Part shown: in pieces, positions 11,507 to 41,408 of the stretch
Layout: every line of letters begins with the position of its first letter
How positions within the stretch are numbered: the stretch's first letter is position 1
Virus record (IMG/VR): IMGVR_UViG_3300020477_001008
Location: 178,647 to 242,646 of that record
Length of the DNA: 64,000 nt
DNA from: a virus
Strand: one strand, 5' to 3'
Notes under the pieces: model-generated
Seen by the model: only the letters and a program-made list of their open reading frames with translations
Database searches by the model: none
Told to the model about the DNA's origin: nothing
Translations under genes and position numbers: made by a program

Positions 11507-11521
11507 AGACTTGATTAAGGG

Positions 11522-11541: not shown

Positions 11542-11599
11542 TCTAAAAGGTCGTAAATTAAAAAAACGTGCTTATATATAAAGGCGTAAAGGAGAAAAG

Positions 11600-20168: not shown

Positions 20169-21245
20169 ATGTATACAATAGAACAAATAAAAACAATACA
20201 CTTAGAAATTACCCAAAAGTGTCAAGCCGCTTGTCCAATGTGCGACAGAAATCAAAATGGCGGAGACCTTAATCCACATATAAAATTAGACGAATTAACA
20301 TTACAAGACTGTAAACAAATTTTTACACCTTCATTTATATCACAATTAAAGAAAATGTATATGTGTGGTAATTTAGGTGATCCTGTAATTGCTACTGATA
20401 CTTTAGAAGTATTTGAATACTTTAGACAACACAATCCAAACATATGGTTGAATATGCATACAAACGGTGGTGCTAAAAAACCTGAGTGGTGGAAAGATTT
20501 AGCAAAAGTTATTGGCAAAAATGGAGACGTTACTTTTAGTGTTGATGGGTTAGAAGATACAAATCATTTATACAGGCAAAATGTTAATTGGAAACTTGTA
20601 GACCAATCAATGAAAGCATATATTGAAGGTGGTGGAAAAGTTAGATGGGATTATTTAATATTTGATCACAATCAACATCAAGTAGAAGAAGCAGAACAAT
20701 ATGCCAAGTCAATTGGTGTACATAAATTTCAAGCAAAGAAAACAGGTAGATTTATTACTACTACAAGTCAAGCTAAACAATCACACCAAGCAGTAAATCG
20801 TAAAGGTAAAGAAACTCAAGAATTAAAAAAGCCAGATGATAAGTTTGTAAACAAAGCTCTTAAAAAACAAGACTCTTTACTTGACAAATATGGTTCTATG
20901 GATGCATACTACGATAAAGTACCAATTTGGTGCAAAGTAAAAGATGAAGGTAGTTTATATATTAGTGCAGAAGGACTAGCATTACCTTGTTGTTGGACAG
21001 CAGGTAGAATGTACAAATGGTGGCATAAAGATCCTAAAGTAGAACAAATATGGAATCATATAGATGAAGTAGGTGGAAAACAAATGCTTGATGCTAAAAA
21101 CGGATTAGATAAAGTTTTTAATACTGGAATATTTGATTCAATTGAAAAGAGTTGGAATATTGATGGCTGTAATAACGGCAAATTAAAAGTATGTTCTATG
21201 AAATGTGGTAAAGAATTTGATCCATTTGCAGAACAGTTTAACTAA
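20169..21245 (+). CDS. Radical SAM protein 1 (C-terminal SPASM-like Cys)
   Basis: 358 residues. The [4Fe-4S] ligands of the core are C18, C22 and C25 (KCQAACPMC), very near the N-terminus. FSVDGLEDTNHLYRQNVNW is the strand region typical of this subgroup and recurs in the protein coded at 30389. Toward the C-terminus, YISAEGLALPCCW and CSMKCGKE are SPASM/twitch-like cysteines for an auxiliary cluster. Belongs to the same subgroup as the proteins at 30389, 32100 and 33152. SPASM enzymes commonly act on peptides or proteins. Substrate unknown. Confidence 0.88.
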   Translation: MYTIEQIKTIHLEITQKCQAACPMCDRNQNGGDLNPHIKLDELTLQDCKQIFTPSFISQLKKMYMCGNLGDPVIATDTLEVFEYFRQHNPNIWLNMHTNGGAKKPEWWKDLAKVIGKNGDVTFSVDGLEDTNHLYRQNVNWKLVDQSMKAYIEGGGKVRWDYLIFDHNQHQVEEAEQYAKSIGVHKFQAKKTGRFITTTSQAKQSHQAVNRKGKETQELKKPDDKFVNKALKKQDSLLDKYGSMDAYYDKVPIWCKVKDEGSLYISAEGLALPCCWTAGRMYKWWHKDPKVEQIWNHIDEVGGKQMLDAKNGLDKVFNTGIFDSIEKSWNIDGCNNGKLKVCSMKCGKEFDPFAEQFN

Positions 21246-21257
21246 TTAAATTACCAA

Positions 21258-21263
21258 TAAATA
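21258..21263 (+). promoter_or_regulatory. Late promoter box within the radical SAM array
   Basis: TAAATA (preceded by AA, giving AATAAATA) lies 9 nt before the ATG of the gene at 21273 in the only real gap between the first two radical SAM genes. A start 6 nt after the box leaves about 3 nt of leader. Confidence 0.45.
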
Positions 21264-21272
21264 TAGTAAAAG

Positions 21273-22745
21273 ATGACTGATAAACCTAAACTACCATCGA
21301 AAACGTTTTGTGCTTTACCTTGGATGCACTTGTCAACAAGGCCTGACGGAAATATGCGAGTATGTTGTACAGCAAACGCAAGTTCTGTTGGTGCTACAAA
21401 TGATAAGGAATTTGGAGGACAAGTGGGACTATTACGTAATGAAGATGGTGTACCGGCAAATTTAAACAATGCAGATTTAATGTCTAGTTGGAATAACAGT
21501 TATATGAAAAATGTGCGTAAGCAGATGTTAACTGGAAAAAGACCACCAAGTTGTATTAAATGTTATAAAGAAGAAGATGCAGGACATATGAGTAAGCGTC
21601 AATGGGAAACTGAATATTGGTTAAACAGATATTCAATGGATGAAATAATTGGCGAAACAACTGAAGATGGTGCTATTCCACCTAAGATTAGATATATTGA
21701 TTTACGTATGGGATCTAAATGTAATTTAAAATGTATTATGTGTAGTCCACACGATAGTTCATTGTGGGTAAAAGACTGGCAGGCTGTTTATCCTAAAATT
21801 AAAAATCCTATATTAAAAGAATCAATGAGCTGGCAGAATAAAGGAAAAGTTCACGGAGCAAATTACAATTGGCATAAAGACAATCCTACATTCTGGGATC
21901 AATTATATGAGCAAATACCTCATATGTATCAGTTATATTTTGCTGGAGGCGAATCTACTATTATTGAAGAGCATTATACTTTATTAGAAGAAGTAATTAG
22001 ACGTGGATATGCTCACAAGATAGAATTACGATACAACTCAAATGGTGTCGAAATGCCTGATAGATTATTTGAGATTTGGAGCAAATTTAAGAGAGTAAGA
22101 TTTCATTATAGTGTTGACTCTATAGAAGAGATGAATAGTTATATACGTTTTCCAGCAGACTGGGATAATACAGTTAAGCAGTTTCATCTATTAGATAATA
22201 CAGATGATAAAGTTGAAGTTACAATTGCCTGTGCAGTACAGGCCTTGAATATACATTATATTCCTGACTTTATAAAATGGAAGCTTGAACAGAATTTTAA
22301 AAAGATTAATGTATGGCCATTTGGTGCTGGAATGATTAATTATCATTTTGTATATTGGCCACCTCAATTAAATGTAAAAGTATTACCACAATGGTTTAAA
22401 GAAAGAGTTAAACAGAAGTACGAGGAGTTTTATCCTTGGCTAGAAGAAAATTGGAAATTAAGTGGTGCTCCAAGTAAAGAAGCATTTTTAAACGCAGACT
22501 ACGGTATCAAAAGATTAAAAGGAATGGTTAAATTTATGATGTCAGAAGATTGGTCTGTGAGAATGCCAGAGTTTAGAGAGTACATAACACAATTTGATAT
22601 ACAGAGAAACACAGACTTTAAAAAAGTATTTCCTGATATGGCAGGCCTTTTAGATGAAACACTTGACAATAGTATTGAGACCAAACTAGGTGATAAAGTG
22701 GATGAAAAAACTGAAAAGGAACTTGCAGATGGCGGAACGATCTAA
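21273..22745 (+). CDS. Radical SAM protein 2, N-terminal twitch type
   Basis: 490 residues. An N-terminal Cys module (C13 in FCALPW, C31-C32 in MRVCC, C94/C97 in SCIKC) precedes the radical SAM core (C150, C154, C157 in KCNLKCIMC). LYFAGGES is the glycine-rich SAM-binding strand. This order, auxiliary cysteines before the core, is the N-terminal twitch arrangement, reversed from normal SPASM proteins. The C-terminal ~150 residues lack cysteines and are helical. Preceded by a late-type box. No peptide precursor gene is seen nearby. Substrate unknown. Confidence 0.92.
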   Translation: MTDKPKLPSKTFCALPWMHLSTRPDGNMRVCCTANASSVGATNDKEFGGQVGLLRNEDGVPANLNNADLMSSWNNSYMKNVRKQMLTGKRPPSCIKCYKEEDAGHMSKRQWETEYWLNRYSMDEIIGETTEDGAIPPKIRYIDLRMGSKCNLKCIMCSPHDSSLWVKDWQAVYPKIKNPILKESMSWQNKGKVHGANYNWHKDNPTFWDQLYEQIPHMYQLYFAGGESTIIEEHYTLLEEVIRRGYAHKIELRYNSNGVEMPDRLFEIWSKFKRVRFHYSVDSIEEMNSYIRFPADWDNTVKQFHLLDNTDDKVEVTIACAVQALNIHYIPDFIKWKLEQNFKKINVWPFGAGMINYHFVYWPPQLNVKVLPQWFKERVKQKYEEFYPWLEENWKLSGAPSKEAFLNADYGIKRLKGMVKFMMSEDWSVRMPEFREYITQFDIQRNTDFKKVFPDMAGLLDETLDNSIETKLGDKVDEKTEKELADGGTI

Positions 22746-24003
22746 AACATACTGTCCTTTACCTTTTATTCATTCACACGCAGGGTTAAATGGAAAATAT
22801 AAACCTTGTTGTAATTCAGATACATCAGTTCACGGTTACAAATATCATATAGAAAAATTAGGTTATAAAGATTGGTTTTATCATCCAGAAATGGATAAAC
22901 TAAGAAATGATTTATTAAATGGTGTACAAAATCCAATGTGTGATGTTTGTTGGAAACAAGAAGCATTTAGTTCAGATAGTTATAGAACAGTTTATATAAA
23001 AAAATATCAAGATGATAATATAAATCATAAAGATCCAAAAATAACTTATATTGATATGAAGCTATCAAATGAATGTAATTTAGCTTGTACTCATTGTGAT
23101 TATTCTAACTCATCACAAATTTATAAAGATATGTTATCTATAGAAGAGCAAGGTTTGGAGTTACCACCTCAATGGGAAAGAAGTCCTAATTTTGAAAAAA
23201 GATTAGAAGATAAAGATAGAAAAGATATGTATCATAAGCAACCACAAAACGTTGTTGATGAATTAATTGATTTAATGCCAGACCTTAAACACTTAAAAGT
23301 TACAGGTGGAGAGCCTACTATTACAAAAGAATTTTTTAGATTAGTAGATTATGCAGTTGAAAATAACTATGCAAAAAATCTTAATTTGTATATTACTACT
23401 AATGGAACAAGGTTTACTCCTGACTTTATAAAAAAATTACAACACTTTAAAAATTTACATTTAACAGTTAGTTGTGATGGATATGGAGATACTTACGAAT
23501 ATATTAGATATCCATTTACTTGGAAAATGTTTGAGAAAAGATTAAAAGTTGTTGCAGAACATTTAAAGTCAACTAATCATAATATTAGATCATTAAATTT
23601 TAACTGTGTAGCTCAGATGCAAAACATTGAAAACATACCAAAACTTGAAAATTGGATTTATGATTTATTTCAGCAACAAGCATCTCTTTATGTACAGCCA
23701 CATATTAATCCTGTTGATAGTACAAATCATTCTAAACTATTACCAAAGCATATTTTAGAAAAAGCACTAGAAGATATAAGAATATCAAATGCAAAATCAG
23801 GATATGATTTAAAAATGTATACAGATATGTTAGAATGGTTAATTAAAAACTTTAATAGTGATGAATTAAAAATATATAGATCAGTCAAATATCTAAAAAA
23901 TATGAAAAATGCACTTGTTAATCTTGACAAGATAAGAAAACAAGACTATAGAACTAATCTTGAACCATTAACAAGAGAATGGGTGGAGGGTTTAAATGTC
24001 TAA
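22729..24003 (+). CDS. Radical SAM protein 3, N-terminal twitch type
   Basis: ATG 22729 (MAERSKTYCPLPF) places the conserved first Cys near the N-terminus; 424 residues, overlapping the previous gene by 17 nt. Cys module C9, C27-C28, C71/C74; core C116, C120, C123 (ECNLACTHC); SAM-binding VTGGEPTI. The rest follows the fold of its neighbours. Divergent from the tandem pair at 27431 and 28821, so it is an older paralogue. Substrate unknown. Confidence 0.92.
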   Translation: MAERSKTYCPLPFIHSHAGLNGKYKPCCNSDTSVHGYKYHIEKLGYKDWFYHPEMDKLRNDLLNGVQNPMCDVCWKQEAFSSDSYRTVYIKKYQDDNINHKDPKITYIDMKLSNECNLACTHCDYSNSSQIYKDMLSIEEQGLELPPQWERSPNFEKRLEDKDRKDMYHKQPQNVVDELIDLMPDLKHLKVTGGEPTITKEFFRLVDYAVENNYAKNLNLYITTNGTRFTPDFIKKLQHFKNLHLTVSCDGYGDTYEYIRYPFTWKMFEKRLKVVAEHLKSTNHNIRSLNFNCVAQMQNIENIPKLENWIYDLFQQQASLYVQPHINPVDSTNHSKLLPKHILEKALEDIRISNAKSGYDLKMYTDMLEWLIKNFNSDELKIYRSVKYLKNMKNALVNLDKIRKQDYRTNLEPLTREWVEGLNV

Positions 24004-25246
24004 AACATTTAAGTTTTGTAAGGCACCATTTGGTAGTATATATGTAAGACCAAATGTAAGACCAAATCCACAAGCTGGTAAACAAACTGAGATTAGCTTC
24101 TGCTGTGTGCAGACTGAAAAATATATGTTAAAAGAAAATGAAACAGTTAATGATTTTTGGAAAAGCGACTGGGCAAAAGAACATAGGCAACAGTTTCTTA
24201 ATAAAGAGTGGCCTTCTTCTTGTAGTTATTGTGAATGGAAAGAAAATAACAATATTGAAAGCGATATTGGAACACACCAACAGATTACTATTAAAGAGTA
24301 TAATATTTCTGATGGCAATGAAATGGCTAAACCAAAATATGTTGATTATAGACCAGATAATTTATGCAACCTAATGTGTACAATGTGTGGTCCTAGTAAT
24401 AGTAATTTAATTGAAGATATGTGGCGTGAAATACCTATTAGTCCTGGGTGGCACCACGAAGCAAATGCAGGAATAGATGGTGATGTAACTATTGAAGAAG
24501 AAGAATTAGTAACCAAAGAATTACTTGGTAATCATACAATGCAATTAAAAGTTTTAGGTGGAGAACCTACTATTAATAAAAAAGTTCATTCAGTATTTCA
24601 ATATGCGATTGATAAAGGATATGCACAAAATATAGATTTAAAAATAACAACCAATTTTACTAATGTAAACAAAACTTATGATATGTTTGATAAGTTTAAG
24701 TCTTGCAGGATACAAGCTAGTATTGATGCAACAGGACCAACATATGATTATATTAGAAGACCAGCTAAATGGTCAGCTGTAAAAGAAAAGCTTTTACAAT
24801 TTGCTGATAGATACGAAAATTCTTATCCAAAAATGCAATGGAATTTTAATATTGTTTGGCAATTAGCAAATTGCTTTACTGTTAAAGATTGGTTACCTGA
24901 ATTACTTGATATGTTCTACAATGATCCAAAGCTAAAAAAAATAGCAAAACAAGACGTAGGATTATCATTAATTAATTGTGATGGAACAGGTATAACACTA
25001 GACGCTATACCAGATAGTATGAAACATTATATAATTGATGATTTAGAAGATTTATTAAAAGATTGGAAACATAATCCTTTCGCATTTAAAGATATTGAAA
25101 CATTAATCAAGTATACTGAAAATGCAAAGTTTACCAATTTGCAACATAGAGCATTTAAAAGAAAATTTACATTAATGGATCAATATAAAAAAACAAATAT
25201 GTTTGAATTAAGTCCAAGGTTTAAGGAGTTGTATGACTTTAGATAA
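23996..25246 (+). CDS. Radical SAM protein 4, N-terminal twitch type
   Basis: 416 residues, overlapping the previous gene by 8 nt. Cys module C8, C36-C37, C76/C79; core C124, C128, C131 (LCNLMCTMC); LGGEPTI for SAM binding. The N-terminal loop between first Cys and CC is longer than in neighbours. It overlaps the PLP-enzyme-like gene by 14 nt, so the two are co-translated and perhaps act on the same molecule (inference). Confidence 0.92.
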   Translation: MSKTFKFCKAPFGSIYVRPNVRPNPQAGKQTEISFCCVQTEKYMLKENETVNDFWKSDWAKEHRQQFLNKEWPSSCSYCEWKENNNIESDIGTHQQITIKEYNISDGNEMAKPKYVDYRPDNLCNLMCTMCGPSNSNLIEDMWREIPISPGWHHEANAGIDGDVTIEEEELVTKELLGNHTMQLKVLGGEPTINKKVHSVFQYAIDKGYAQNIDLKITTNFTNVNKTYDMFDKFKSCRIQASIDATGPTYDYIRRPAKWSAVKEKLLQFADRYENSYPKMQWNFNIVWQLANCFTVKDWLPELLDMFYNDPKLKKIAKQDVGLSLINCDGTGITLDAIPDSMKHYIIDDLEDLLKDWKHNPFAFKDIETLIKYTENAKFTNLQHRAFKRKFTLMDQYKKTNMFELSPRFKELYDFR

Positions 25247-26153
25247 AAAATTGTTTTTAACAAAACACGCCGCTATCTATGATCCTGAATTTCAAGATAG
25301 ATTGTGGAATGCACCTTGGCAAGATTGGTTAAGTAAATCAGGTTATTTTAATGTTAAAGATGAATATATAGAAACTATTGATAAATGGATTTATAATTCT
25401 AATGAAATTAAATTTAATGGGTTAGACAGATTTAAGTATAAAGATTTAATTCACGGAACAACTCAAGCTTTTGATGAAGCATATTACAGATATAAAGAAC
25501 GTAGGTTACGAACTTATAGAGGAGAGTATGCTTATCATAAAAGAGTGCAAGGAGTAAAGAATTTTATTGATACTAAAGAAGGTGATTATATACCAATTGA
25601 AGAAAATGATTGGGTAGTAATAAGTTTACCATTTTGTGGTAATGGTGCTGAGCCACCATTTTTAGAAAAAGTTTTAAATGATTGTGCAAATTTAAATGTA
25701 CCAGTATTAATTGATTGTGCTTGGTTTGGAACACACTATTGGAAAAAAACATTTACTTTAGATAATCCTTGTATTAAAGAAGTATGTTTTAGTATTTCAA
25801 AAGGAATAGGAATGGGTAATATGAGAACTGGTATTCGATATTCTAATTACGATGATCATTTACCTATTAGACAACATAATAATTATAACCATTTGCCTTT
25901 AGGATTATCACAAATTGGTATATGGCAAATGCAAAAGTTTAGTTCTGATTTTATTGGTAACAAGTATAATGAAATGGTAAAAACAGTTTGCGAACAAAAT
26001 AATATTATAATGACTCCAGTTATGCATATTGGGTTACTTGAAAAAGGACATCCTGATTATGAATATTTTTTAACTGATGATGTTTATAGTAAAGTTGGAA
26101 TACGTGAAGCTGTAAAAAAGTATAGAAAGGAATTGCGAAATGAAGAAAGATAA
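25233..26153 (+). CDS. PLP-dependent aminotransferase-like protein (fold type I)
   Basis: 306 residues, short for class I/II aminotransferases (350-400). LIHGTTQAFDEAYYRY, then NVPVLIDCAWFGTHYW with the Asp that would contact the PLP pyridine N, then CFSISKGIGMGNMRTGI with the candidate Schiff-base Lys and downstream Arg, follow the order of aminotransferase motifs. The C-terminal domain appears truncated. Overlaps radical SAM genes on both sides (14 nt each), so it is an integral member of the island. Could be a transaminase, an aldolase-type PLP enzyme or a degenerate homologue. Confidence 0.55.
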   Translation: MTLDKKLFLTKHAAIYDPEFQDRLWNAPWQDWLSKSGYFNVKDEYIETIDKWIYNSNEIKFNGLDRFKYKDLIHGTTQAFDEAYYRYKERRLRTYRGEYAYHKRVQGVKNFIDTKEGDYIPIEENDWVVISLPFCGNGAEPPFLEKVLNDCANLNVPVLIDCAWFGTHYWKKTFTLDNPCIKEVCFSISKGIGMGNMRTGIRYSNYDDHLPIRQHNNYNHLPLGLSQIGIWQMQKFSSDFIGNKYNEMVKTVCEQNNIIMTPVMHIGLLEKGHPDYEYFLTDDVYSKVGIREAVKKYRKELRNEER

Positions 26154-27444
26154 TTTTTGCATATTACCTTTTATACATTTAAGTACTAGGACTAACGGTG
26201 CTATGCAATTATGCTGTCACGCAAATAGTAGTACTACAAAAAATTATCGACAGCCAGGACTTAATAGAAAATCAAATGGCGAGTTTGTATATGTGTATAA
26301 AGACAAACCTTCTGATTATTGGAATACTGATTATATGAAAGCTGTTCGTAAAAAACTAATAAATGGCCAAATGCCAAAAGAATGTATGGTATGCTATAAA
26401 GAAGAAGCATCAGGATATAGATCAAAAAGACAATGGGAAAATGATGAGTGGTCTGAAAAAGTAAATTTTGATGATGTATTAGCAAAAGTAAAAGATGATG
26501 GCGAAGCACCTTTTGATATACGTTATGTAGATATGAAATTAGGTAATAAATGTGACCTGGCTTGTTTAATGTGTAATCCAGCAGATAGTTCTTTATGGAT
26601 ACCTGATTATAATAAATTAATTGATTCTAATATATCTGAAAAAGCTAAAGAAGAATTGTTATGGAAAAAAGGCGAAGGAAAATTAAATTGGTATAAAGTA
26701 GATGCAGTTTTTTGGAAAGATATAGAAAGCAAATTAGACAGTATTGAAAATCTATATATAATTGGTGGAGAACCAACAATCAATCCAGAGTTTAAAACTT
26801 TCTTGGAAATGTGCGTAGAATCAGGGCATTCCAGCCGGATAAACCTGCGTTTTAATACGAACGGGTATACTACTACAAAAGAGCTTGATCGCCTTTATAC
26901 GTGCTTTAAAACGTGTTTAATCCACCTTTCTTTAGACGGGTTTGGTGATTATCATAATCTTATACGTTATCCAAGTAATTGGGAAACAATGTTGGAAAAA
27001 TTAGATTATTGGGATAATACAGCAGACAATATACAAGTTACAATTGACTTAACAGCTTCAATATTAAACATTATGCATATACCAGATTTTATTAAGTGGA
27101 AAGTATCACAGAACTTTAAAAAAATTAATACAGATATAAATCAAGGATTTATAGGAATTCATTATTTGCATTCTCCTAATTTTTTAAAAGTAACATCATT
27201 GCCAAAACATATTAAAGAACAAGTAGTAAAACAGTATGAAGATTTATACCAATGGATAAGTGAAAACATTGAAGGTGGAGATAAAAAATTAAAAAAATAT
27301 CAAAAGTTCAAAGCACTTATAGATTTAATGAATGGTAAAGATGAAAGTCATATGTGGCCAACAGTAATAGAGTATTTAGATAAGATGGATAGTATACGAG
27401 GAACAAATTGGAGAAAGGTGTTAAAAGAATATGAAGAAAACTAG
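26140..27444 (+). CDS. Radical SAM protein 5, N-terminal twitch type
   Basis: 434 residues. Cys module C7, C25-C26, C82/C85; core C138, C142, C145 (KCDLACLMC); IIGGEPTI. Closest in layout to radical SAM protein 2. A ~130-bp stretch at 26811-26943 inside the core uses atypical codons (see that entry), but the protein sequence there still fits the family (RINLRFNTNGY, IHLSLDGFGDY), so the gene is intact. Overlaps both neighbours by 14 nt. Confidence 0.92.
   Translation: MKKDNFCILPFIHLSTRTNGAMQLCCHANSSTTKNYRQPGLNRKSNGEFVYVYKDKPSDYWNTDYMKAVRKKLINGQMPKECMVCYKEEASGYRSKRQWENDEWSEKVNFDDVLAKVKDDGEAPFDIRYVDMKLGNKCDLACLMCNPADSSLWIPDYNKLIDSNISEKAKEELLWKKGEGKLNWYKVDAVFWKDIESKLDSIENLYIIGGEPTINPEFKTFLEMCVESGHSSRINLRFNTNGYTTTKELDRLYTCFKTCLIHLSLDGFGDYHNLIRYPSNWETMLEKLDYWDNTADNIQVTIDLTASILNIMHIPDFIKWKVSQNFKKINTDINQGFIGIHYLHSPNFLKVTSLPKHIKEQVVKQYEDLYQWISENIEGGDKKLKKYQKFKALIDLMNGKDESHMWPTVIEYLDKMDSIRGTNWRKVLKEYEEN
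26811..26943 (+). other. Island of atypical codon usage inside radical SAM protein 5
   Basis: Codons such as CGG, CTG, CGT, CGC, ACG, GGG, TGC, ATC and CAC cluster here, while the surrounding tens of kilobases use AGA, GGA/GGT, ACA and AAT. Of the 120 bases from 26821, 51 are G or C by my count (about 43%), against roughly 30% around it. The reading frame is continuous. It suggests a small recombination tract from a relative with different base composition, or a chimeric assembly. Confidence 0.6.
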
Positions 27445-28831
27445 ACCTAGTGATTTATATTATAAACATCTTACAAAGAATAATAATTCTTGGTGCCCAG
27501 TACCGTGGACTCAGATAGCAGTCCATAACTCAGGAGAATATAGAAGTTGTATACAAGCCAGAACTTGTAAAAAAACAAAAGGTATTTTAAAAGACGAAAA
27601 TAATAAAATTATGAGAGCAGATACACACTCTATTGAAGATGTAAGAAATGCACCTTTATTAAAAGAAGTAAGAAAAGATATGCTAGACAGTAAACGCCAT
27701 AGTATGTGTATTAGATGTAATGAAGAAGATGATGCAAAAATGAATTCAAGACGTAGATATGCAATTAGAGAATACTATAACAAGTATGAATATGATTTTT
27801 GGAATGCTGAATCAAGTACAAAACCTGATGGGACTTTAGTTATAGAAAAGTCACCTATAATAGAGTGGGATATTAGATTAGGCAATTTATGTAATTTAAA
27901 ATGTAGAATGTGTGATCCAAGTGAAAGTACACAGTGGTACGACGAATGGTTTGATACAATGTTTAAAGGATTTAAAACTGATTTTACTGAAGTAGAGTTA
28001 GTTAAAGATAAAAATAGAGCTAAAGTAAAAAATGACATTTATAGTTGGTATGATGAAGTAAACTTTTATGACCAATTTGATACTAATGCAAGTGGAACAA
28101 GAAAAATACATTTCTCAGGTGGAGAACCTACTTTAGTAGAGAATATGTATGATATGTTACAAAAGTTAATTGATAGTGGTATAGCAAAAGAAATGGACCT
28201 TGATTATAATATTAATTTAACTAATATTCCAAAAAGAGCAATTAATTTATGGCACGAGTTTAAAAGTGTACAAATAGGTGGAAGTGTTGATGGTGTTGGA
28301 AAAATTAATGAATATATAAGATACCCTTCAAAATGGAGTAAAGTTGAAGAAAATATTAAATGGTTAGATGCTAATACCCAGCCTAACATTTCTTTATTCA
28401 ATACATTTACTTGGCAAATATTAAATGCTGTAGAAGTATTTGATTTAGTAAAATATCAAATTGAAAATGATTTTGTTAAGTTTAATGCAGAAGTTAATAG
28501 TGTTTTCTTTAGTATGCATTTTTTACATTCACCAGATTATTTAAATGTAAAAGCTCTACCTAAGGAATTAAAAGAATATGTACAACAAGAATTTGATAAA
28601 TTTGATAATGAATTTTTTAAATTGTGGGAAACTGATGACATAAGTTTAAAAGAAAGATTTAGAGATAAAATGCAATCAATGTTAGATTTTATGTGGAGTG
28701 AAGACAAATCAGACCATTTTATTGAGTTTGTTAAAAGAACTAAAATACAAGACAAATATAGGAATCAAAATTTTGCTGAATTATATCCAGTAATAAGCAA
28801 TTATATAAAGAGAAACTACAATGAGTTTTAA
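27431..28831 (+). CDS. Radical SAM protein 6, N-terminal twitch type (tandem copy A)
   Basis: 466 residues. C22 (WCPVPW), then C40 and C46 (YRSCIQARTC) in place of the usual CC pair, C93/C96 (CIRC); core C154, C158, C161 (LCNLKCRMC); FSGGEPTL. Nearly identical in long stretches to the next gene, so the two arose by recent tandem duplication. Separating the CC pair by five residues may change auxiliary cluster binding. Overlaps both neighbours. Confidence 0.92.
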   Translation: MKKTRPSDLYYKHLTKNNNSWCPVPWTQIAVHNSGEYRSCIQARTCKKTKGILKDENNKIMRADTHSIEDVRNAPLLKEVRKDMLDSKRHSMCIRCNEEDDAKMNSRRRYAIREYYNKYEYDFWNAESSTKPDGTLVIEKSPIIEWDIRLGNLCNLKCRMCDPSESTQWYDEWFDTMFKGFKTDFTEVELVKDKNRAKVKNDIYSWYDEVNFYDQFDTNASGTRKIHFSGGEPTLVENMYDMLQKLIDSGIAKEMDLDYNINLTNIPKRAINLWHEFKSVQIGGSVDGVGKINEYIRYPSKWSKVEENIKWLDANTQPNISLFNTFTWQILNAVEVFDLVKYQIENDFVKFNAEVNSVFFSMHFLHSPDYLNVKALPKELKEYVQQEFDKFDNEFFKLWETDDISLKERFRDKMQSMLDFMWSEDKSDHFIEFVKRTKIQDKYRNQNFAELYPVISNYIKRNYNEF

Positions 28832-32116: not shown

Positions 32117-33152
32117 GAAAATATATCCAAAATGTTTGTTTACTACAAAAGCAAAAGCAACTTATATTAGTCACGATGGCTATGTAAGACCTTGTTGCTT
32201 TGTTCATAGGCATAATAAAACTGAAAGAGATGAACCGTGGATGGTTGATTTTAAACATAATATTGGTTCTGGTAAAAGTTTAGAAGAAATGTTTAGTACT
32301 CCTGAGTATACAGATTTTTTTAATAGGTTAAAGACTGGAAAAGATATACCTGAAAGATGTTATGAAGTCTGTGGAAAAGTTCAAACAAATGTTGGAACAG
32401 ATCATAGAAAAGAAAAAACAACAAATGAAGTACCAAGATGGACTAAAGCAGTTGAGCAGTCATATGAAGAAACATATAAAGTACAAAAGAAATTACAAGT
32501 AGATGTAACTCACAGATGCAGTTTAGGTTGTCCTAAATGTATGAGGTTTGAAGCAAATTGGACAGATCCAGTAACTAAAAAGAAATATGCCCTAGCTCAT
32601 CAAGTTTTAAAAAAAGTAGAATTACAAGTAGATGATTTTAAAAAGTTATTTAAAGAAAATCCGCAGATGTGTAAAGGTGATGTTGATTTTTGTGGTACTT
32701 GGAGTGATGCAATTTATCATCCTGAATTTTTAGAAATTTGTAGAGTAATTAAAAACAATGGTGCTAATATTAATATTGCAACAAATGGATCTCGTAAAAA
32801 ACCAGAATGGTGGGATGAATTATATAGTATGATGGATCCTGCTTGGGATTCAATTGTATTTGGAATGGACGGTTTAAAAGATACAGCAGACAAATATAGA
32901 AAATATATTATATACGATGATGTTATTACAGCAATGAAAAAAGGTGCTGATGCTGGATTTGTTAAAAATAAATGGTCCTTTATTGTTTTTAATTTTAATC
33001 AACATCAAGTTTATGAAGCAGAACAATTAGCAAAAGATATTGGAATAAAATTTGAAATAGTAAAATCACATAGATGGGATGGACCAAATGATCCATACAT
33101 ACCTACTAAAGAATGGTTACCACAATCAACAATCAAGGAGTACAATTTATAA
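32100..33152 (+). CDS. Radical SAM protein 9 with N-terminal Cys module
   Basis: ATG 32100 (MTKVNKKIYPKC) gives 350 residues and a 17-nt overlap with the previous gene; the open frame begins earlier but inside that gene. It combines an N-terminal module (C12, C32-C33 in VRPCCF, C87 and C91) with a core more like proteins 1 and 8 (C140, C144, C147 in RCSLGCPKC; GMDGLKDTADKYRKY). It is therefore intermediate between the two subgroups. It ends soon after the core, without a C-terminal Cys module. Confidence 0.88.
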   Translation: MTKVNKKIYPKCLFTTKAKATYISHDGYVRPCCFVHRHNKTERDEPWMVDFKHNIGSGKSLEEMFSTPEYTDFFNRLKTGKDIPERCYEVCGKVQTNVGTDHRKEKTTNEVPRWTKAVEQSYEETYKVQKKLQVDVTHRCSLGCPKCMRFEANWTDPVTKKKYALAHQVLKKVELQVDDFKKLFKENPQMCKGDVDFCGTWSDAIYHPEFLEICRVIKNNGANINIATNGSRKKPEWWDELYSMMDPAWDSIVFGMDGLKDTADKYRKYIIYDDVITAMKKGADAGFVKNKWSFIVFNFNQHQVYEAEQLAKDIGIKFEIVKSHRWDGPNDPYIPTKEWLPQSTIKEYNL

Positions 33153-34363
33153 TGCATAGGGCAAATGAATTAAAAGAAGTACAACTTGAAATATCAAGTA
33201 ATTGTCAAGCAGGCTGTATGGAATGCAGTAGATGGAAAATGTTAGATGGAAAACAAATACCTAATCCAAATGTAAAATTTGGTGCCGCAGGTAATATGAG
33301 TATTGATTTAATTAAAGAAACGTTTGATAGAAAAATATTACCTGTGTTTGAATTTATAGCACTTGATGGTAATTATGGAGATAGTTTAATACATCCACAA
33401 AGTCTTGAAATTATAGAACACTTGCTTTTAACATTTGGAGATAGAAAAAATCCTGCACTTAAAACTAATGTTCCAGTACATATTGAAATAAATTCAAATG
33501 GTGGTTATCATAATAAAGATTATTGGTATGAATTAGGAAAGCTGTTTGCTAAACATAGAGAATTAAATGGAGATAGAGAAAGTTCAGTTTGTTTTGGAAT
33601 AGATGGAACTGATAATGAAACACACGACAAATATAGAAGAAATGTTGTATATGATAAAGTTATTGAACACGCAGAACAATTTATAAAAGGTGGTGGCAGA
33701 GCTGAATGGAAATATTTGGAGTTTGATCATAATGTACATCAAACAGATGAAGCTAGGAAGATAGCTAAAGAAATGGGATTTAAAAAATTTTTTGTAAAAA
33801 GATCTAGATGGGTTGATGCCGCATTACGTGAAATTGTAGAACAAAAGCAAACAGGCGACTCGTCAGGAACAACTATACAAGGTGCAAAATTAGGTAAAAA
33901 AGCTGGAGCGACATATAGCAGGATACCAAAAGCAAAAAAAGATTTTGTTAAAAAAGTAGAACAGCAAGTTAGCAAGTATAAAGATTATTTTAATGAAGTA
34001 CCAATAAGTTGTTATTGGAGGAATCAAAAAAGAATACAAATAGAGTATGATGGTGCTGTATGGCAATGTTGTCATTTTCCACCAGTTTATAGTGTTGATA
34101 TGAGACCAGATAATCAAAGAGGAAAATGGGAATTAGAAAAAGCTAAAGAATATGATTATTATCGTGCAACATATGGCAATGATTGGAATAATTTAAACAA
34201 GCATAATTTAGTTAATATATTAGAACACCCTTATTTTGATTCTATTGAGAGAAGTTGGAGCCATACAACTAAAGATAAAATAGAACCAAGATTGTCGCGA
34301 TGTGTTGAAAAATGTGCTATAACTACTAAAGCATTAACAAAAGATAAAAGGGAAAGATTATAA
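33152..34363 (+). CDS. Radical SAM protein 10 (C-terminal SPASM-like Cys)
   Basis: ATG 33152 follows an AAGGAG site and overlaps the previous stop by one base; 403 residues. Core C18, C22, C25 (NCQAGCMEC), then GIDGTDNETHDKYRRN equivalent to the 'DGLEDTN' strand of protein 1. C-terminal cysteines in ISCYWR, VWQCCHF and RCVEKC look like a SPASM-type auxiliary module. One-base overlap with the next gene. Substrate unknown. Confidence 0.88.
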   Translation: MHRANELKEVQLEISSNCQAGCMECSRWKMLDGKQIPNPNVKFGAAGNMSIDLIKETFDRKILPVFEFIALDGNYGDSLIHPQSLEIIEHLLLTFGDRKNPALKTNVPVHIEINSNGGYHNKDYWYELGKLFAKHRELNGDRESSVCFGIDGTDNETHDKYRRNVVYDKVIEHAEQFIKGGGRAEWKYLEFDHNVHQTDEARKIAKEMGFKKFFVKRSRWVDAALREIVEQKQTGDSSGTTIQGAKLGKKAGATYSRIPKAKKDFVKKVEQQVSKYKDYFNEVPISCYWRNQKRIQIEYDGAVWQCCHFPPVYSVDMRPDNQRGKWELEKAKEYDYYRATYGNDWNNLNKHNLVNILEHPYFDSIERSWSHTTKDKIEPRLSRCVEKCAITTKALTKDKRERL

Positions 34364-35742
34364 TGTCAGCAAAAGATGTATATTGTCCAATACCGTGGAT
34401 GTTCCAAGCAGTCAGGAACAATGGTGATGTGAGAATATGCTGTCAAGCCAATGTTACTAAAAATCAAGGAGTAGTAAGAAAAGAAGATGGATCATCATAT
34501 AATGCTGGAAAAGATGATATGGATGAAGCCAGAAATGCTGAGCTAATGAAAATTGTTAGAAAAAATATGCTTGAAGGACGTTGGAGTCACGAATGTGGTA
34601 GATGTAAAAAAGAAGAAGAAGCTGGTTTACGAAGTAGAAGACAATATGAACAGGAATGGGGATTTAAATTAGAAGACGCAATACGAATTACTAATGAAGA
34701 TGGTACTATTAAAACTGATGATACACCTTTAGTATATTATGATTTACGTTTTGGTAACTTATGTAATTTAAAATGTAGAATGTGCGGACCAACAGATAGT
34801 CACAGTTGGTATGAAGACTGGCTTGCCTTACACGGAGGTGATGGGTTTCAAGATACTCACGGATATGTAAAATTAAACAAAAATAATAAAGGCAGATTGG
34901 AAACAAACGATTATGATTGGCACAGTAGTGAAAGTTTCTGGAATAATATAGAAAAAAATATTCCTAATATGCAACACGTTTATATGGCAGGTGGAGAACC
35001 TTTAATGATAGAAAGACATTATGACTTTTTACAAAAATGTGTTGATATGGGTCAAGCAGAAAAAATGATAATTGAATATAATACTAATATGACTAATTTG
35101 CAACCTCGTGTTTTAAAATTATGGGAAAAATTTAAAACAGTAAGAGTTGGAGCGTCGATCGATGGAATAGGTAAAGTATTAGAGTATCAAAGGTATCCAG
35201 CTAAATGGAAATCAGTTTTAAAAAATTTACAAGCAGTTGATAACCTAGGACCAAATGTTCAAGGTTGGTTAGCTTGTACAGTTACAACGGTAAATGTATT
35301 TCATATACCAGAATTTATAAAATGGAAAATTATGGAGAGTGGATTTAAAAAGTTTAATACTGGAAAAAAATTACCAGTGTTAACTATACACGTAGCACAC
35401 TCACCAGGCCACGCCTGTATTAAAACTCTACCTCCTGAGTTAAAACAAATAGTTAGAGAAAAGTATGATAATTTTAAAGATTGGCTAATCAATGCAGATT
35501 TAGATGAAAAATATGTACACGCATCTATGAAAATTATTAATAGTATAGTTGACTATATGATGAGTGGCGACAATGGTGGTAAAGGTTGGGGCTGGTTTAA
35601 AATGTATACAAGAACATTAGATTTACGTAGAAAACAAAATATATTAGATATAGCACCTGAGTATGAACCATATTTTAGAGATTTAGATCATATTGATCAG
35701 AACATAAGAGAGAGTGAAAATGCAAGAGTCGGACAAACCTAA
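34363..35742 (+). CDS. Radical SAM protein 11, N-terminal twitch type
   Basis: 459 residues. C8 (YCPIPW), C26-C27 (VRICC), C78/C81 (CGRC); core C134, C138, C141 (LCNLKCRMC); MAGGEPLM as the SAM-binding strand. Best preserved example of the N-terminal twitch layout. Overlaps neighbours at both ends. Substrate unknown. Confidence 0.92.
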   Translation: MSAKDVYCPIPWMFQAVRNNGDVRICCQANVTKNQGVVRKEDGSSYNAGKDDMDEARNAELMKIVRKNMLEGRWSHECGRCKKEEEAGLRSRRQYEQEWGFKLEDAIRITNEDGTIKTDDTPLVYYDLRFGNLCNLKCRMCGPTDSHSWYEDWLALHGGDGFQDTHGYVKLNKNNKGRLETNDYDWHSSESFWNNIEKNIPNMQHVYMAGGEPLMIERHYDFLQKCVDMGQAEKMIIEYNTNMTNLQPRVLKLWEKFKTVRVGASIDGIGKVLEYQRYPAKWKSVLKNLQAVDNLGPNVQGWLACTVTTVNVFHIPEFIKWKIMESGFKKFNTGKKLPVLTIHVAHSPGHACIKTLPPELKQIVREKYDNFKDWLINADLDEKYVHASMKIINSIVDYMMSGDNGGKGWGWFKMYTRTLDLRRKQNILDIAPEYEPYFRDLDHIDQNIRESENARVGQT

Positions 35743-36973
35743 AACTTTTTGCGTTGCCCCATTTTCTCATATGTGGTATCGTAATTCTGGAAACTATTAT
35801 GTCTTTAAACCTTGTTGTGAGGTAAGAGATAATGATGTTTATTATATTGATAAAAATAAAAATCATAAAGATAATGTAATTGCTGAATATTGGAATAGTG
35901 AATGGATTAAAGATATTCGAAAAACTATGTTGGAAAATAAACCGCATAAGATTTGTACAGATTGTTATAAAGTTGAAAAAACAACTGGACGTAAGCACAG
36001 AGATGATTATGCTGGATATTTAAAAGATAATACTATAGAGTTTAATGTTGATACTGGAAATAAATGGAATACACCATTAACACTTGATTATAGACCAAGT
36101 AACTTATGTAATTTAAAATGTAGAATGTGTGGCCCTGGTAGTAGTACTGAGTGGGCTAAAGAAATTGAAAGATATAAAAATTCACATTATCAAAATTTAG
36201 ATAAAATGGAAGATGGCACAGAAGTTATAATGATGTCAACGGACAATGCATTTATGTTTGATAGGGAAACAAATGCAGATGACCAATATAAAAATTTACC
36301 TTTAGACAACATAAGAAGAGCCGCTTTCTTAGGTGGAGAACCTTTATTAAATGAAGAAGTTTTTAATATAATGTCTAATTGGATAAAATTAGGAAAAGAT
36401 AATATTAAGATACAAATAACTACAAATGGTACAAGTTTTACAGATAGATGGTTAAAGTTATTTTCTAAATTCAAAAGAATAAAACTTGTAATTAGTTTAG
36501 ATGGTGTAGGTAATACTTTTGATTATATTAGAACAAATGCAAACTGGGATAAAGTTTTAGAAAATTGTAAAAATTTATCTAAATTAGATCATATTACAAT
36601 ATGTTTTAGTTATTGTATACAGATGTATAATGTTTTTGGTTTAGTTGAGATACTTGAATTTTTAAAGACTTGGAAACAACCAAAAGATGATACTCATATT
36701 TTTGAAGTAGTATTCCAAAATTTTCTTTCAACATCAATGTTAGATACAGAAGATTATAATAAAGTTATTTCAGAGTTACAAGATTATAGAAATAAAAATT
36801 TAGATAGAACTATTGAAGTGGATGAAATATTAGGTATTCTAAAGTATGATAGGAATAGAGTTGTATCAGATGCAGAGAAAAAGTATTTTATAAGTTATAC
36901 AAATAAACTAGACGAAGCTAGGAAAACTAGCCTTATTGATTTAAATCAGGATTTTAAAAAATACTTGATTTAA
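35720..36973 (+). CDS. Radical SAM protein 12, N-terminal twitch type
   Basis: ATG 35720 chosen, with GAGAG upstream; a GTG two codons earlier is the alternative. 417 residues: C11, C32-C33 (FKPCCE), C79/C82 (CTDC); core C130, C134, C137 (LCNLKCRMC); LGGEPLL. Last of the uninterrupted array; a tRNA-Glu promoter overlaps its 3' end. Substrate unknown. Confidence 0.92.
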   Translation: MQESDKPKTFCVAPFSHMWYRNSGNYYVFKPCCEVRDNDVYYIDKNKNHKDNVIAEYWNSEWIKDIRKTMLENKPHKICTDCYKVEKTTGRKHRDDYAGYLKDNTIEFNVDTGNKWNTPLTLDYRPSNLCNLKCRMCGPGSSTEWAKEIERYKNSHYQNLDKMEDGTEVIMMSTDNAFMFDRETNADDQYKNLPLDNIRRAAFLGGEPLLNEEVFNIMSNWIKLGKDNIKIQITTNGTSFTDRWLKLFSKFKRIKLVISLDGVGNTFDYIRTNANWDKVLENCKNLSKLDHITICFSYCIQMYNVFGLVEILEFLKTWKQPKDDTHIFEVVFQNFLSTSMLDTEDYNKVISELQDYRNKNLDRTIEVDEILGILKYDRNRVVSDAEKKYFISYTNKLDEARKTSLIDLNQDFKKYLI

Positions 36974-36993
36974 TGGGAAAGTTATTATATAAT
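36965..36993 (+). promoter_or_regulatory. Promoter for tRNA-Glu
   Basis: TTGATT (36965-36970), 17 nt, perfect TATAAT (36988-36993). Predicted start about 37000, 4 nt before the mature tRNA. It overlaps the end of radical SAM gene 12. Confidence 0.7.
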
Positions 36994-37003
36994 ATAGGTG
37001 CGT

Positions 37004-37078
37004 GGTCCCTTCGTCTATCGGTTAGGACAGCGGTTTTTCATACCGCAAAGAGGAGTTCGATTCTCCTAGGGACTACCA
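37004..37078 (+). tRNA. tRNA-Glu (anticodon UUC)
   Basis: GGTCCCT pairs with AGGGACT (terminal G-U), discriminator A, encoded CCA. The anticodon stem GCGGT/ACCGC encloses loop TTTTCAT, giving TTC. D arm TCGTCTATCGGTTAGGACAG resembles bacterial tRNA-Glu. It separates the radical SAM array from the ferredoxin reductase gene. Confidence 0.94.
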
Positions 37079-37096
37079 GAATAAAAAGGAATTAAA

Positions 37097-37864: not shown

Positions 37865-37867
37865 TAA

Positions 37868-38653
37868 ATGAAATATTGGCAAAAAAACGTAGATCAAAAA
37901 CCAAATTGGCATATTTGGGGTACTGGACAATCTTTCTGGCCTAAAAATTATTCTAATCAAGTACTGAATTGGTGTGACTCAGACAATAAATCTCGTTTTA
38001 ATTTTAATATGAAAACACATAAAAGTAAATTAGAGAAACTAGGATGGACTAATTCAAACATCACGTATTCTTTTAATAAAGAGAGTTTTCGTAGTGATAG
38101 TTTTAGAAAAAAATGTAGTATACTTTTTAATGGATGTTCACAAACAATGGGGACAGGATTACCTTTAGAAAAAACTTGGACAAATCAAGTTGCTAATTAT
38201 TATAAAGTAAATTATCACAATCTTGCAATAGCTGGTTCTGATTGGAATGCTATAGCACAGAGATCAGTATTTTGGTTGCCTAGACTTAAACCAAAAGTAC
38301 ATATTATCAAAGCACCACCTTCACAAAGATTTACTTGGTGGAAGGACCGAGTACTTATAGGGTCTTCTGATATGTCACGGCAAGAATTATTAAAAAATAA
38401 AGCAGTAGTTGATATAATTGATGATGGTGCAAACTATGAATGGATGAGATATTCAGCTATGAAAGTAATAGAAACTATCTGTAAAGATTTAGATATTAAA
38501 TTACTATATGTTCCTATGGGTAGGATCAGTAAATCTAACTCCGGTGATTTAGCTAGAGATTTAGTGCATTGGGGTTGTATTGAAAATGATAAACTAGCAG
38601 ACTGGGTTATTAAAAAAATGAAAGAGAAAAAATATGAAAATTTTATTAACTGA
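37868..38653 (+). CDS. SGNH/GDSL hydrolase-like protein
   Basis: 261 residues. LFNGCSQTMGTGLPLEKTW resembles the first SGNH block (G-x-S-x-T-x-G), with NLAIAGSDWNAIA as a possible second block. No signal peptide. SGNH enzymes remove acyl groups from sugars or lipids. The C-terminal His/Asp block is not obvious, so activity is uncertain. Overlaps the HAD gene by 20 nt. Confidence 0.5.
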   Translation: MKYWQKNVDQKPNWHIWGTGQSFWPKNYSNQVLNWCDSDNKSRFNFNMKTHKSKLEKLGWTNSNITYSFNKESFRSDSFRKKCSILFNGCSQTMGTGLPLEKTWTNQVANYYKVNYHNLAIAGSDWNAIAQRSVFWLPRLKPKVHIIKAPPSQRFTWWKDRVLIGSSDMSRQELLKNKAVVDIIDDGANYEWMRYSAMKVIETICKDLDIKLLYVPMGRISKSNSGDLARDLVHWGCIENDKLADWVIKKMKEKKYENFIN

Positions 38654-39236
38654 TATAGACGGTGTAGTATTAGATTGGGTAAAACATTTTGAAGCTTATC
38701 TAGACAAGTACTATCCAGATAATAAATTAGCAAATCCAAAAGAATTTGATTTGACTTTAAGATATACGGATTTAAAACCAATGTCAGAATCAATGGGTAA
38801 AGATAAAGACTTTATGAGAAATGTAGTTAAAAATTTTAACACTACAGCCTGGATTGGATTTTTAGAACCTTTTAGAGATGCAAAAGAAGTATTACCAAAG
38901 TTTAAAGATGCAGGCTACAAAATAATTGCTTGTACGTCAATGGGCACTGATCCTTACTCAAATGCTTTAAGAAAAATGAATTTAGAACAACATTTTCCTG
39001 GAGTATTTGATCAAGTAGATATTATTCCATTTGCTGAACCTAAAGGAAATTGGTTAAAGCAATATAGAGATTCTGGAGCATATTGGATAGAAGACAAATG
39101 GACTAATGCAGTTGCAGGAGCAGATGTGGGGTTAAATACACTTATAATGAAGCACGAATATAATGCTTTTATGAAGGATAGTAGAATAAGACACGTTGAT
39201 AACTGGCAACAAATATATTCTATAATAAAAAAATAA
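38634..39236 (+). CDS. HAD-superfamily phosphatase
   Basis: 200 residues. Motif I DIDGVVLDW (D7 nucleophile, D9), motif II Thr/Ser in IIACTSMGT, and a distal acidic motif IEDKWTNA, which together fit a HAD phosphatase such as a 5'-nucleotidase-like enzyme. Ends with TAA one base before the next ATG. A second HAD domain of similar type is fused in the protein coded at 48635. Substrate unknown. Confidence 0.75.
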   Translation: MKILLTDIDGVVLDWVKHFEAYLDKYYPDNKLANPKEFDLTLRYTDLKPMSESMGKDKDFMRNVVKNFNTTAWIGFLEPFRDAKEVLPKFKDAGYKIIACTSMGTDPYSNALRKMNLEQHFPGVFDQVDIIPFAEPKGNWLKQYRDSGAYWIEDKWTNAVAGADVGLNTLIMKHEYNAFMKDSRIRHVDNWQQIYSIIKK

Positions 39237-40220: not shown

Positions 40221-40224
40221 CAAG

Positions 40225-40230
40225 TAAATA
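40225..40230 (+). promoter_or_regulatory. Late promoter box before radical SAM gene 13
   Basis: TAAATA followed by 8 nt (TACTTGTT) and ATG 40239. One of four cases with 8-nt spacing (also 44821, 48621, 53961), in which +1 would fall about 3 nt before the ATG. Confidence 0.55.
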
Positions 40231-40238
40231 TACTTGTT

Positions 40239-41408
40239 ATGGAAATTAATCTTAAAGACAATAAAACCTTTTGTGCTTTTGGCTTTAAAGGAGCAATGAT
40301 TGAAGTTGATGGCAGAGTAAGGCCGTGCTGTCGTTTTAAGATTAAAAAATCACAAAGATTAAAAGTAAATGAAGATAGATCTATTACTGATATTTTTAAT
40401 TCAGAACTTTATAAAGATATAAGAAAAAAAATGTTAGCTGGCGAAAAAGTAGATGGTTGCCAGAGATGTTATAGAGAAGAAGAAGCAGGATATCTTAGTA
40501 TGCGTTTATCTGATATTATCCAATCAACTAATACTGATGTAGAGTTACAATATCTTGAGTTTGAATCAGGAAGACATTGTAATTTAAAATGTAGAAGTTG
40601 CTCAGCTGATGTGTCAACTAAATGGAATGAAGATATAAAAAGACTTCCATCATTACAAGATCCAGATTTTGATTATGAAGCACATTATTATAATGAAGCA
40701 TTAGAAAAATTATCTAAAGATGAGTGTTCTAAATTAAGGTCTATAAAAGTTACAGGTGGTGAGCCATTTTTAAGTAAAACATTTTTAACTTTTATGAATA
40801 ATATGGTTGAATGGGATTATGCAAAAAATGTAACTTTGAAAGTTTATACAAATACTTCTTTTTTACCAAAAAAAAAGTTTCTTGATCAATTATTAAAATT
40901 TCGAAATTTATATTTGTATATGAGTATTGATGATATTAAAGAAAGAAATGATTATTTAAGATCAGGTAGTGAGTGGAAACTAGTAGAACTTGTAGCTCGT
41001 TATTGGATGGAGTTAGCATCAAAAGAGAAAAAAGTACATTTAGTTGTTAGTAATACAGTGAGTATTTTTAATCTGTTAACTTTAAATGAATTTGATGAAT
41101 GGCTAAAACAAAAAGAAAAAGAATATAATATTTTTATAGAATGCAATTATCAGCCTTTGCATTATCCAACAGAATTAGCATACTACAATTGGCCAAGACA
41201 TATTAAAAATCAAATGAAAGAATCTTTAGCTAGATACAAAAACCCATCTAATAAAATTAAAAGGCTTTATGATTTATTAGATTCACATAAGGTGACTACA
41301 ATTAGTGTTAAAAAGCAATTCTTATCCACTACAAATAGTATCGATTATGTTAGAAATGAGAGTTGGAAACAAGTATTTCCTGAACTTTTCAAGCTATTAA
41401 ATGGTTGA
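40239..41408 (+). CDS. Radical SAM protein 13, N-terminal twitch type
   Basis: 389 residues. C12 (FCAFGF), C30-C31 (VRPCC), C74/C77 (CQRC); core C114, C118, C121 (HCNLKCRSC); VTGGEPFL. Separated from the main array by tRNA-Glu, fpr and three other genes, with its own late-type promoter box and no Shine-Dalgarno. It is the ninth member of the N-terminal twitch subgroup. Substrate unknown. Confidence 0.92.
   Translation: MEINLKDNKTFCAFGFKGAMIEVDGRVRPCCRFKIKKSQRLKVNEDRSITDIFNSELYKDIRKKMLAGEKVDGCQRCYREEEAGYLSMRLSDIIQSTNTDVELQYLEFESGRHCNLKCRSCSADVSTKWNEDIKRLPSLQDPDFDYEAHYYNEALEKLSKDECSKLRSIKVTGGEPFLSKTFLTFMNNMVEWDYAKNVTLKVYTNTSFLPKKKFLDQLLKFRNLYLYMSIDDIKERNDYLRSGSEWKLVELVARYWMELASKEKKVHLVVSNTVSIFNLLTLNEFDEWLKQKEKEYNIFIECNYQPLHYPTELAYYNWPRHIKNQMKESLARYKNPSNKIKRLYDLLDSHKVTTISVKKQFLSTTNSIDYVRNESWKQVFPELFKLLNG

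Follow-up and report, generated by a model that had tools for sequence, protein, structure and literature searches.

Genomes rich in radical S-adenosylmethionine (rSAM) genes have been noted before among marine viruses: Nishimura 2017 (PMC5332604) described a 183-kb T4-like environmental viral genome that encodes 12 rSAM proteins and an A-type carrier, and pelagimyophages carry rSAM cassettes in a hypervariable host recognition cluster, together with lipopolysaccharide (LPS) glycosyltransferases and tail fibres (PMC7029224). Here we analyze a 64,000-bp stretch of DNA (the window), which is the final 64 kb of the 242,646-bp IMG/VR virus record IMGVR_UViG_3300020477_001008 (positions 178,647 to 242,646) and contains thirteen rSAM genes between window positions 20169 and 41408; the remaining 179 kb of the record were also read. 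Like the PMC5332604 genome, this record derives from a T4-like marine virus and combines many rSAM genes with iron-sulfur (Fe-S) assembly genes, but it differs in encoding 24 rSAM proteins, in possessing a Suf set instead of ATC/IscU, and in its ordered core and bacterial counterparts; neither an array nor a function was given for the earlier genome. The variable rSAM cassettes of pelagimyophages are likewise found in T4-like marine phages, but they were mentioned only briefly and no core or partner set was defined (PMC7029224).

The protein family NF033640 (twitch domain-containing rSAM) shares with many array members an N-terminal cysteine module followed by an rSAM core (hereafter N-twitch), but it is a family with no assigned reaction rather than a pathway, and four array rSAMs, the three with C-terminal SPASM-like cysteines and the one starting at 32043, fail it (genes are named here by their start positions). 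Vibrio phages K566/K567 are the only isolated phages found with several N-twitch-like rSAM genes, at ~22% identity, and the core glycosyltransferase and methyltransferase were not found in them by the searches made; neither a megablast search with the array nor tblastn with five cassette proteins detected an isolated phage carrying the core. Radical SAM enzymes perform chemistry beyond other enzymes, and aminoglycoside and aminocyclitol pathways (BtrN, HygY, StrB1) combine twitch rSAM enzymes with an aminotransferase and an amidinotransferase acting on sugars or cyclitols. To our knowledge these pathways use at most a few rSAM enzymes, with a C-terminal twitch, whereas the phage has 13 to 24, with N-terminal modules; the StrB1 match alone was compared by sequence. 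We know of no characterized pathway that uses close to 13 to 24 rSAM enzymes. The initial annotation of the window had proposed an undescribed system, and this holds in part: rSAM-rich T4-like marine viruses (PMC5332604) and rSAM cassettes (PMC7029224) had already been noted, whereas novelty appears to lie in the ordered core, in its counterpart in bacteria and in the Suf set linked to it, since the literature searched, which included few subscription journals, contained no description of the core, of N-twitch arrays in Bdellovibrionota or of a Suf set in such phages.

Comparison with related viral contigs delineated a core of five window genes:

18647..19345, + strand: core gene 1, GT-A-fold glycosyltransferase-like (AlphaFold2 fold); 31 viral contigs by reciprocal best hit
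19320..20162 (start probably 19323), + strand: core gene 2, class I (Rossmann) methyltransferase fold and a helical N-terminal segment; reciprocal best hits in 22 viral contigs
20169..21245, + strand: core gene 3, rSAM with C-terminal SPASM-like cysteines; PF04055 over cut-off; 45 viral contigs; bacterial orthologues 38-49% identical
21273..22745, + strand: core gene 4, N-twitch rSAM; NF033640 430 bits; 51 viral contigs, median identity 62%; bacterial orthologues 60-68% identical
34363..35742, + strand: core gene 5, N-twitch rSAM; reciprocal best hits in 37 viral contigs; bacterial orthologues 41-49% identical

The contigs were retrieved with a four-sequence alignment scan, a nine-sequence rSAM alignment being too divergent for the collection scan, and the recurrence of window genes was counted by reciprocal best hits; because only the best 80 loci of at least 547 relatives were retained, the resulting counts are not prevalences. 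Window order and strand are kept in 34 of the 47 contigs having at least three core genes, with all five present in 21. The initial annotation had named two observations that would speak against a functional system, inactive copies and the absence of conserved order in relatives, and neither is seen. Besides the conserved core order, the CxxxCxxC motif is intact in 412/412 full-length rSAMs of the loci, and orthologue pairs present dN/dS values of ~0.1-0.25, with dS saturated, indicative of purifying selection. On these three grounds, random or decaying accumulation was rejected.

Outside the core, much of the array is variable. Non-core window rSAMs recur in just 0 to 8 contigs, versus 37-51 for the core rSAMs, whereas the majority of the longer loci hold 4 to 14 rSAM genes in a span of ~20 kb; Pfam matches 4 to 22 rSAMs in each of sixteen array-bearing records, many of them fragmentary. 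The window shares portions of a second module (26140, 25233, 27431/28821, 30389 and 33113) with loci L012, L014, L011 and L019. Locus L062 carries a shorter array and an amidinotransferase within the same flanks as the window, with ClpS, BacA, Nfu, SufT-like and ClpP genes upstream and a ligase-like gene downstream. The recurrence of the core, the variation of the rest and these matching flanks mark the array locus as a hotspot whose head is conserved and whose contents are exchangeable.

The core extends to bacterial chromosomes. N-twitch arrays were found by a genome-collection scan in metagenome-assembled genomes (MAGs) of Bdellovibrionota, and the core is present in at least 10 genomes of one bacterial class, which is Bdellovibrionota where named. 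In the class of genome G001, 46/144 genomes harbor the N-twitch family, and several of them have at least 10 copies. At all ten best-hit loci a 21273 orthologue (60-68%) stands beside at least one of the 20169, 19320 and 18647 orthologues, larger stretches agree, and in genome G005 homologues of 34363, 20169, 21273, 18647 and 19320 lie inside ~7 kb. Several arrays are embedded in housekeeping surroundings: neighboring genes named by eye place seven N-twitch genes between ATP-synthase (atpD/atpC) and NADH-dehydrogenase (nuo) genes in L186 (G067:C7), and the end of another array (L104) near rpoD and dnaG. The G001 cluster L148-L149 (G001:C1:738000-776900), with ~17 rSAM genes in 30 kb, is bigger than the phage array. 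On a 63-row tree of 21273, the phage sequences form one group (93/100) and the bacterial sequences fall outside it, except for three viral-looking MAG contigs. Loci L094, L097 and L105 were rejected as bacterial loci, all three being inside the phage clade; L094 (46,940 bp, filed under a Rickettsiales MAG) matches IMG/VR locus L039 in size and range, so viral contigs do occur within bacterial MAGs. The presence of a common core in marine phages and bacterial chromosomes turns the observation of many rSAM auxiliary metabolic genes into a testable five-gene pathway. As a separate observation, an MbnB/TglH/ChrH-type iron oxygenase (PF05114) of the kind associated with ribosomally synthesized and post-translationally modified peptides (RiPPs) is encoded at L093:20245-21192, ~7 kb from an rSAM gene of an N-twitch cluster.

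Within the window, each of the thirteen rSAM genes is an open reading frame at its originally reported position; all lie on the + strand, most overlap a neighbor by a few bases, and CxxxCxxC is present in all thirteen. Besides the three core members, the array region comprises:

22690..24003, + strand: accessory N-twitch rSAM; NF033640 271 bits; one reciprocal best hit of at least 38% among contigs
23996..25246, + strand: accessory N-twitch rSAM; NF033640 227 bits
25233..26153, + strand: aminotransferase-like, pyridoxal phosphate (PLP)-dependent, accessory family c5; homologue at 52% identity in the L011 array; a family member matches Aminotran_1_2
26140..27444, + strand: N-twitch rSAM of the second module; NF033640 370 bits; 8 contigs by reciprocal best hit
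27431..28831, + strand: N-twitch rSAM, split-C variant, near-duplicate of 28821; Pfam, cysteine pattern
28821..30392, + strand: N-twitch rSAM, split-C variant; Pfam, cysteine pattern
30389..32116, + strand: 575-aa rSAM, SPASM-like cysteines at the C-terminus; L011 orthologue at 60% identity; motif
32043..33152 (probable start 32100), + strand: rSAM with N-terminal SPASM module; PF04055 and PF13186 over cut-off
33113..34363, + strand: rSAM with C-terminal SPASM-like cysteines; weak PF04055, intact core motif
35714..36973, + strand: accessory N-twitch rSAM; PF04055 6.5e-15
40239..41408, + strand: thirteenth rSAM, N-twitch; NF033640 292 bits

Pfam Radical_SAM matched 12 of the 13, some under the curated cut-off; 30389 has zero Pfam matches, but is recovered by N_Twi_rSAM at 4.5e-13 and by PHROG radical SAM families. 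The nine N-terminal modules previously described were all found as C / CC / CxxC, with a C..C split in 27431 and 28821. The NF033640 scan covered five window proteins (21273, 22690, 23996, 26140 and 40239), all of which pass the 170-bit cut-off at 227-430 bits, and 27431, 28821, 34363 and 35714 share their N-twitch alignment. The C-terminal SPASM-like cysteine sets of 20169, 30389 and 33113 were likewise seen, as were the mixed features of the gene starting at 32100, in which an N-terminal SPASM match (PF13186) precedes a core resembling those three. The cysteines of predicted auxiliary clusters are thus N-terminal in nine proteins and in 32043, and C-terminal in three. Profile searches of the array proteins against PDB returned broad rSAM relatives only. 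As first described, 25233 alone breaks the array; the PLP type is supported by its homologue L064:12577-13494, which matches Aminotran_1_2. Family c5 is present in 19 viral loci and in bacterial arrays, and 25233 used alone as a query gave no matches among viral contigs. Genome-wide, 23 Pfam Radical_SAM matches and 30389, missed by Pfam, make up the 24 rSAM genes; the initial annotation had overlooked the 11 outside the array region and a flavin reductase at 37097.

For the two remaining core genes, the identification is structural. Neither 18647 nor 19320 matches Pfam, and PDB profile searches of these proteins and of 25233 gave nothing firm. The AlphaFold2 model of 18647 (pLDDT 91.6) has GT-A glycosyltransferases as its best PDB folds (prob 1.00, TM 0.3-0.47), and a 34% identical homologue lies on a bacterial chromosome. 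The 19320 model (pLDDT 92.4) yielded 637 PDB matches at E<=0.001, chiefly SAM methyltransferases and their relatives.

The record also encodes components for Fe-S cluster assembly and electron supply, of which the window contains:

4463..5668, + strand: SufS-type cysteine desulfurase; Aminotran_5 3e-123, SufS by neighbors (by eye)
6210..7634, + strand: SufB; SUFBD_core 1e-80
17166..17726, + strand: Nfu scaffold; Nfu_N and NifU
17723..18028, + strand: SufT/DUF59-like (by eye); conserved near ClpP in L062 and L071
37097..37864, + strand: FNR-type flavin reductase, adjoining the array; PF00970 and PF00175
58927..59232, + strand: 2Fe-2S ferredoxin; Fer2

Pfam matches represent all five SUF components (SufS, SufB, SufC, SufD-like and SufE), with a short SufD-like protein (198 aa) and SufC identified as the ABC ATPase adjoining the SufD-like gene; a glutaredoxin (Grx) and a 7Fe-type ferredoxin are also present. 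These genes are dispersed over the genome (window 4463-7634 and 17166-18028; L005:12866-14129(-), L010:2164-2568, L010:3646-4005 and L001:5851-6249(-)). Orthologues of 37097 lie directly after the array in L012 (70%), L014 (67%) and L157 (69%). SufB and SufD-like occur in 2/16 other array-bearing records, the closest relatives G011 and G015, most of the others being fragments; with neither gene in 14 records, the Suf genes support the system rather than define it. The Suf and FNR genes would serve the array rSAM enzymes, and the Fe-S assembly genes of some marine phages could accordingly be explained as feeding their own enzymes. A 598-aa rSAM protein (PF04055 1.6e-9) is encoded at L005:14887-16683(-), close to SufC-like/SufD-like genes, and Microcystis phage MaAM05 (L174, MW495066.1:262798-273876), which may hold cellular sequence, carries sufB-sufC-sufD-sufS-iscU with panB and panC.

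Several enzyme families recur in the arrays as partners: a QueC-like PP-loop protein (c3), an Asp/Asn hydroxylase, a nitroreductase (c8), a short-chain dehydrogenase/reductase (SDR) and the aminotransferase c5. By eye, a carbamoyltransferase-like protein (c9) upstream and a GT8-like protein (c17) also belong here, and the best PDB match of the array amidinotransferase is the inosamine-phosphate amidinotransferase of streptomycin synthesis. The phage's own genome contains members of most partner families, as well as a second c1 gene beside two GT8-like genes. A B12-binding rSAM family (c55) recurs in other arrays. The earlier statement that no precursor peptide is encoded holds inside the array; outside it, the window encodes a member of one small conserved family:

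7634..7855, + strand: 74-aa protein of family c4, directly after sufB

In relatives the usual place of c4 is after core gene 2 and just before an rSAM gene. It is the only small family conserved where a RiPP system would have its precursor gene, beside the rSAM gene; here, at 7634, it stands outside the array. It is possibly an accessory protein, a carrier or a substrate.

The cassette very probably builds a modified molecule, perhaps a surface sugar. The biosynthetic pathway first proposed for the array is supported, as against a scattered pile, but much of the array outside the core varies between relatives. We tentatively favor, as plausible though somewhat short of probable, a modular host-expressed cassette in which the core builds a sugar-containing scaffold, swappable rSAMs tailor it, the product is displayed on the envelope, and Fe-S clusters and electrons are phage-supplied. 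The GT-A-like 18647, the methyltransferase-like 19320 and the rSAMs 20169, 21273 and 34363 would together produce a shared scaffold, most likely one that contains sugar: glycosyl transfer and methylation would build it and the three conserved rSAMs would modify it, acting on sugars as would the variable ones. The latter, with aminotransferase, amidinotransferase, Asp/Asn-hydroxylase-like, nitroreductase, SDR and PP-loop enzymes, would tailor the scaffold by radical C-H chemistry, and a changing tailoring set would give each phage lineage its own product variant. Suf proteins, Nfu and Grx would provide the Fe-S clusters, and FNR and ferredoxins the electrons, for this enzyme load. The product would most likely be shown on the envelope of the infected cell, changing the receptors met by rival phages; envelope display and superinfection exclusion are suggested by analogy with the pelagimyophage glycosyltransferase proposal (PMC7029224).

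A sugar in the scaffold is suggested by the GT-A fold, the partner enzymes, the occurrence of N-twitch genes in O-antigen-type clusters and their closeness to glycosyltransferase family 2 (GT2) genes. By eye, N-twitch genes lie within evident O-antigen/capsule clusters (L124, L126) and, in L175, beside an acyltransferase, an epimerase and a GT2. In six genomes, GT2 genes lie within 5 kb of 4/26 N-twitch clusters, versus 1.0 expected (P ~0.02), and 18647 represents, by fold similarity only, the glycosyltransferase expected in an O-antigen or surface-glycan operon. Several observations weigh against this reading. The other 22/26 clusters have no GT2 within 5 kb, and in a Pfam tally of a mixed bacterial sample GT2 is just mildly commoner near N-twitch genes than among more distant genes (7/147 vs 2/124); given this weak excess, we do not claim the glycan link as general. 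The TM-score of 18647 against known glycosyltransferases is low, and genes for nucleotide-sugar synthesis, a flippase, a polymerase or export were not recognized among the window array neighbors, although the host could supply these functions. In the bacterial locus L149, no classical glycosyltransferase was recognized beside the rSAM, aminotransferase, amidinotransferase and hydroxylase genes, and numerous characterized SPASM/twitch enzymes have peptide substrates.

This last point is the main reason, together with the existence of c4, for retaining protein or peptide modification as an alternative, in which the rSAMs would crosslink or epimerise a phage structural protein or c4 in RiPP-like fashion, with tailoring by the hydroxylases and the methyltransferase. 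SPASM/twitch cysteines are common in peptide-modifying rSAMs, an Asp/Asn beta-hydroxylase family recurs in the arrays, a BacA/SbmA-type peptide transporter is encoded 3 kb upstream, and in most of its loci c4 has the position next to an rSAM gene described above, here following sufB. Yet c4 is the sole small open reading frame conserved in array gaps, lacks a hypervariable core, occurs in just ~20 loci and is 12 kb from the array here, and neither a leader peptidase nor a recognition element was identified, no search having been aimed at these; we regard this alternative as unlikely, if worth serious attention. We consider decidedly unlikely a soluble secondary metabolite of phages and Bdellovibrionota, aminocyclitol-like or amino-acid-derived, secreted or intracellular and lacking an envelope link. 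The aminotransferase, StrB1-like amidinotransferase, carbamoyltransferase-like and hydroxylase partners would suit such a product, as would the L148-L149 chromosomal cluster, which has these enzymes and no recognized classical glycosyltransferase, and the single N-twitch gene inside a polyketide/fatty acid synthase (PKS/FAS)-type cluster of Paenibacillus (L117); the core, however, includes GT-A-like and methyltransferase-like genes, and no export or resistance gene was found, exporters not having been specifically searched.

Known phage DNA modification pathways include rSAM, PLP, glycosyltransferase, carbamoyltransferase and QueC-like genes, but the occurrence of the core and its partners at ordinary bacterial chromosomal loci, including the array between ATP-synthase and NADH-dehydrogenase genes, makes DNA hypermodification very improbable. 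A general Fe-S/redox burden that sequesters or recycles Fe-S clusters, with no dedicated pathway, is slightly less probable still: Suf genes, ferredoxins and many Fe-S proteins do coexist in a single genome, and coordinated Fe-S cluster supply and recycling have been proposed (PMC5332604), but the conserved order, the distinct non-redundant rSAM families and the non-Fe-S partner enzymes argue for a pathway, and SufB/D are found in only 2/16 other array-bearing records, most of them fragments. Returning to the favored sugar-modifying cassette, a bolder version, which we hold improbable, is that T4-like marine phages and Bdellovibrionota, a group including predators of other bacteria, share an rSAM pathway to a new glycoconjugate class that re-marks or seals the occupied host against competitors. 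If the product is a surface glycan, radical-modified sugars would be a weapon in phage-phage competition.

The assignment to T4-like phages rests on PHROG matches to genes of the head, the tail and the replication machinery (portal, major head, tail sheath, terminase, UvsX, ribonucleotide reductase and baseplate wedge); the closest portals are those of jumbo phages, among them PA5oct and Sinorhizobium phage Phosso (~48-51% identity). Among the enzymes originally listed as flanking the array, the methyltransferase 19320, the glycosyltransferase 18647 (by fold) and a HAD hydrolase (by Pfam) are substantiated, and the SGNH 37868 and sulfotransferase 59229 genes are recognized by eye only:

38634..39236, + strand: HAD/NT5C-like hydrolase, array-linked; PF06941; orthologues beside arrays in L012 and L014

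The BacA/SbmA-type transporter, at window 16140-17108 (PF05992 9.5e-136), is 88-91% identical in L062 and L071, much more conserved than its neighbors. Proteostasis and translation genes were also recognized by eye (window 1615-5740, 11063-13492, 15838 and 18060), encoding ClpX, IF-3, bS21, bL12, Hsp20, DnaK, ClpS and ClpP.

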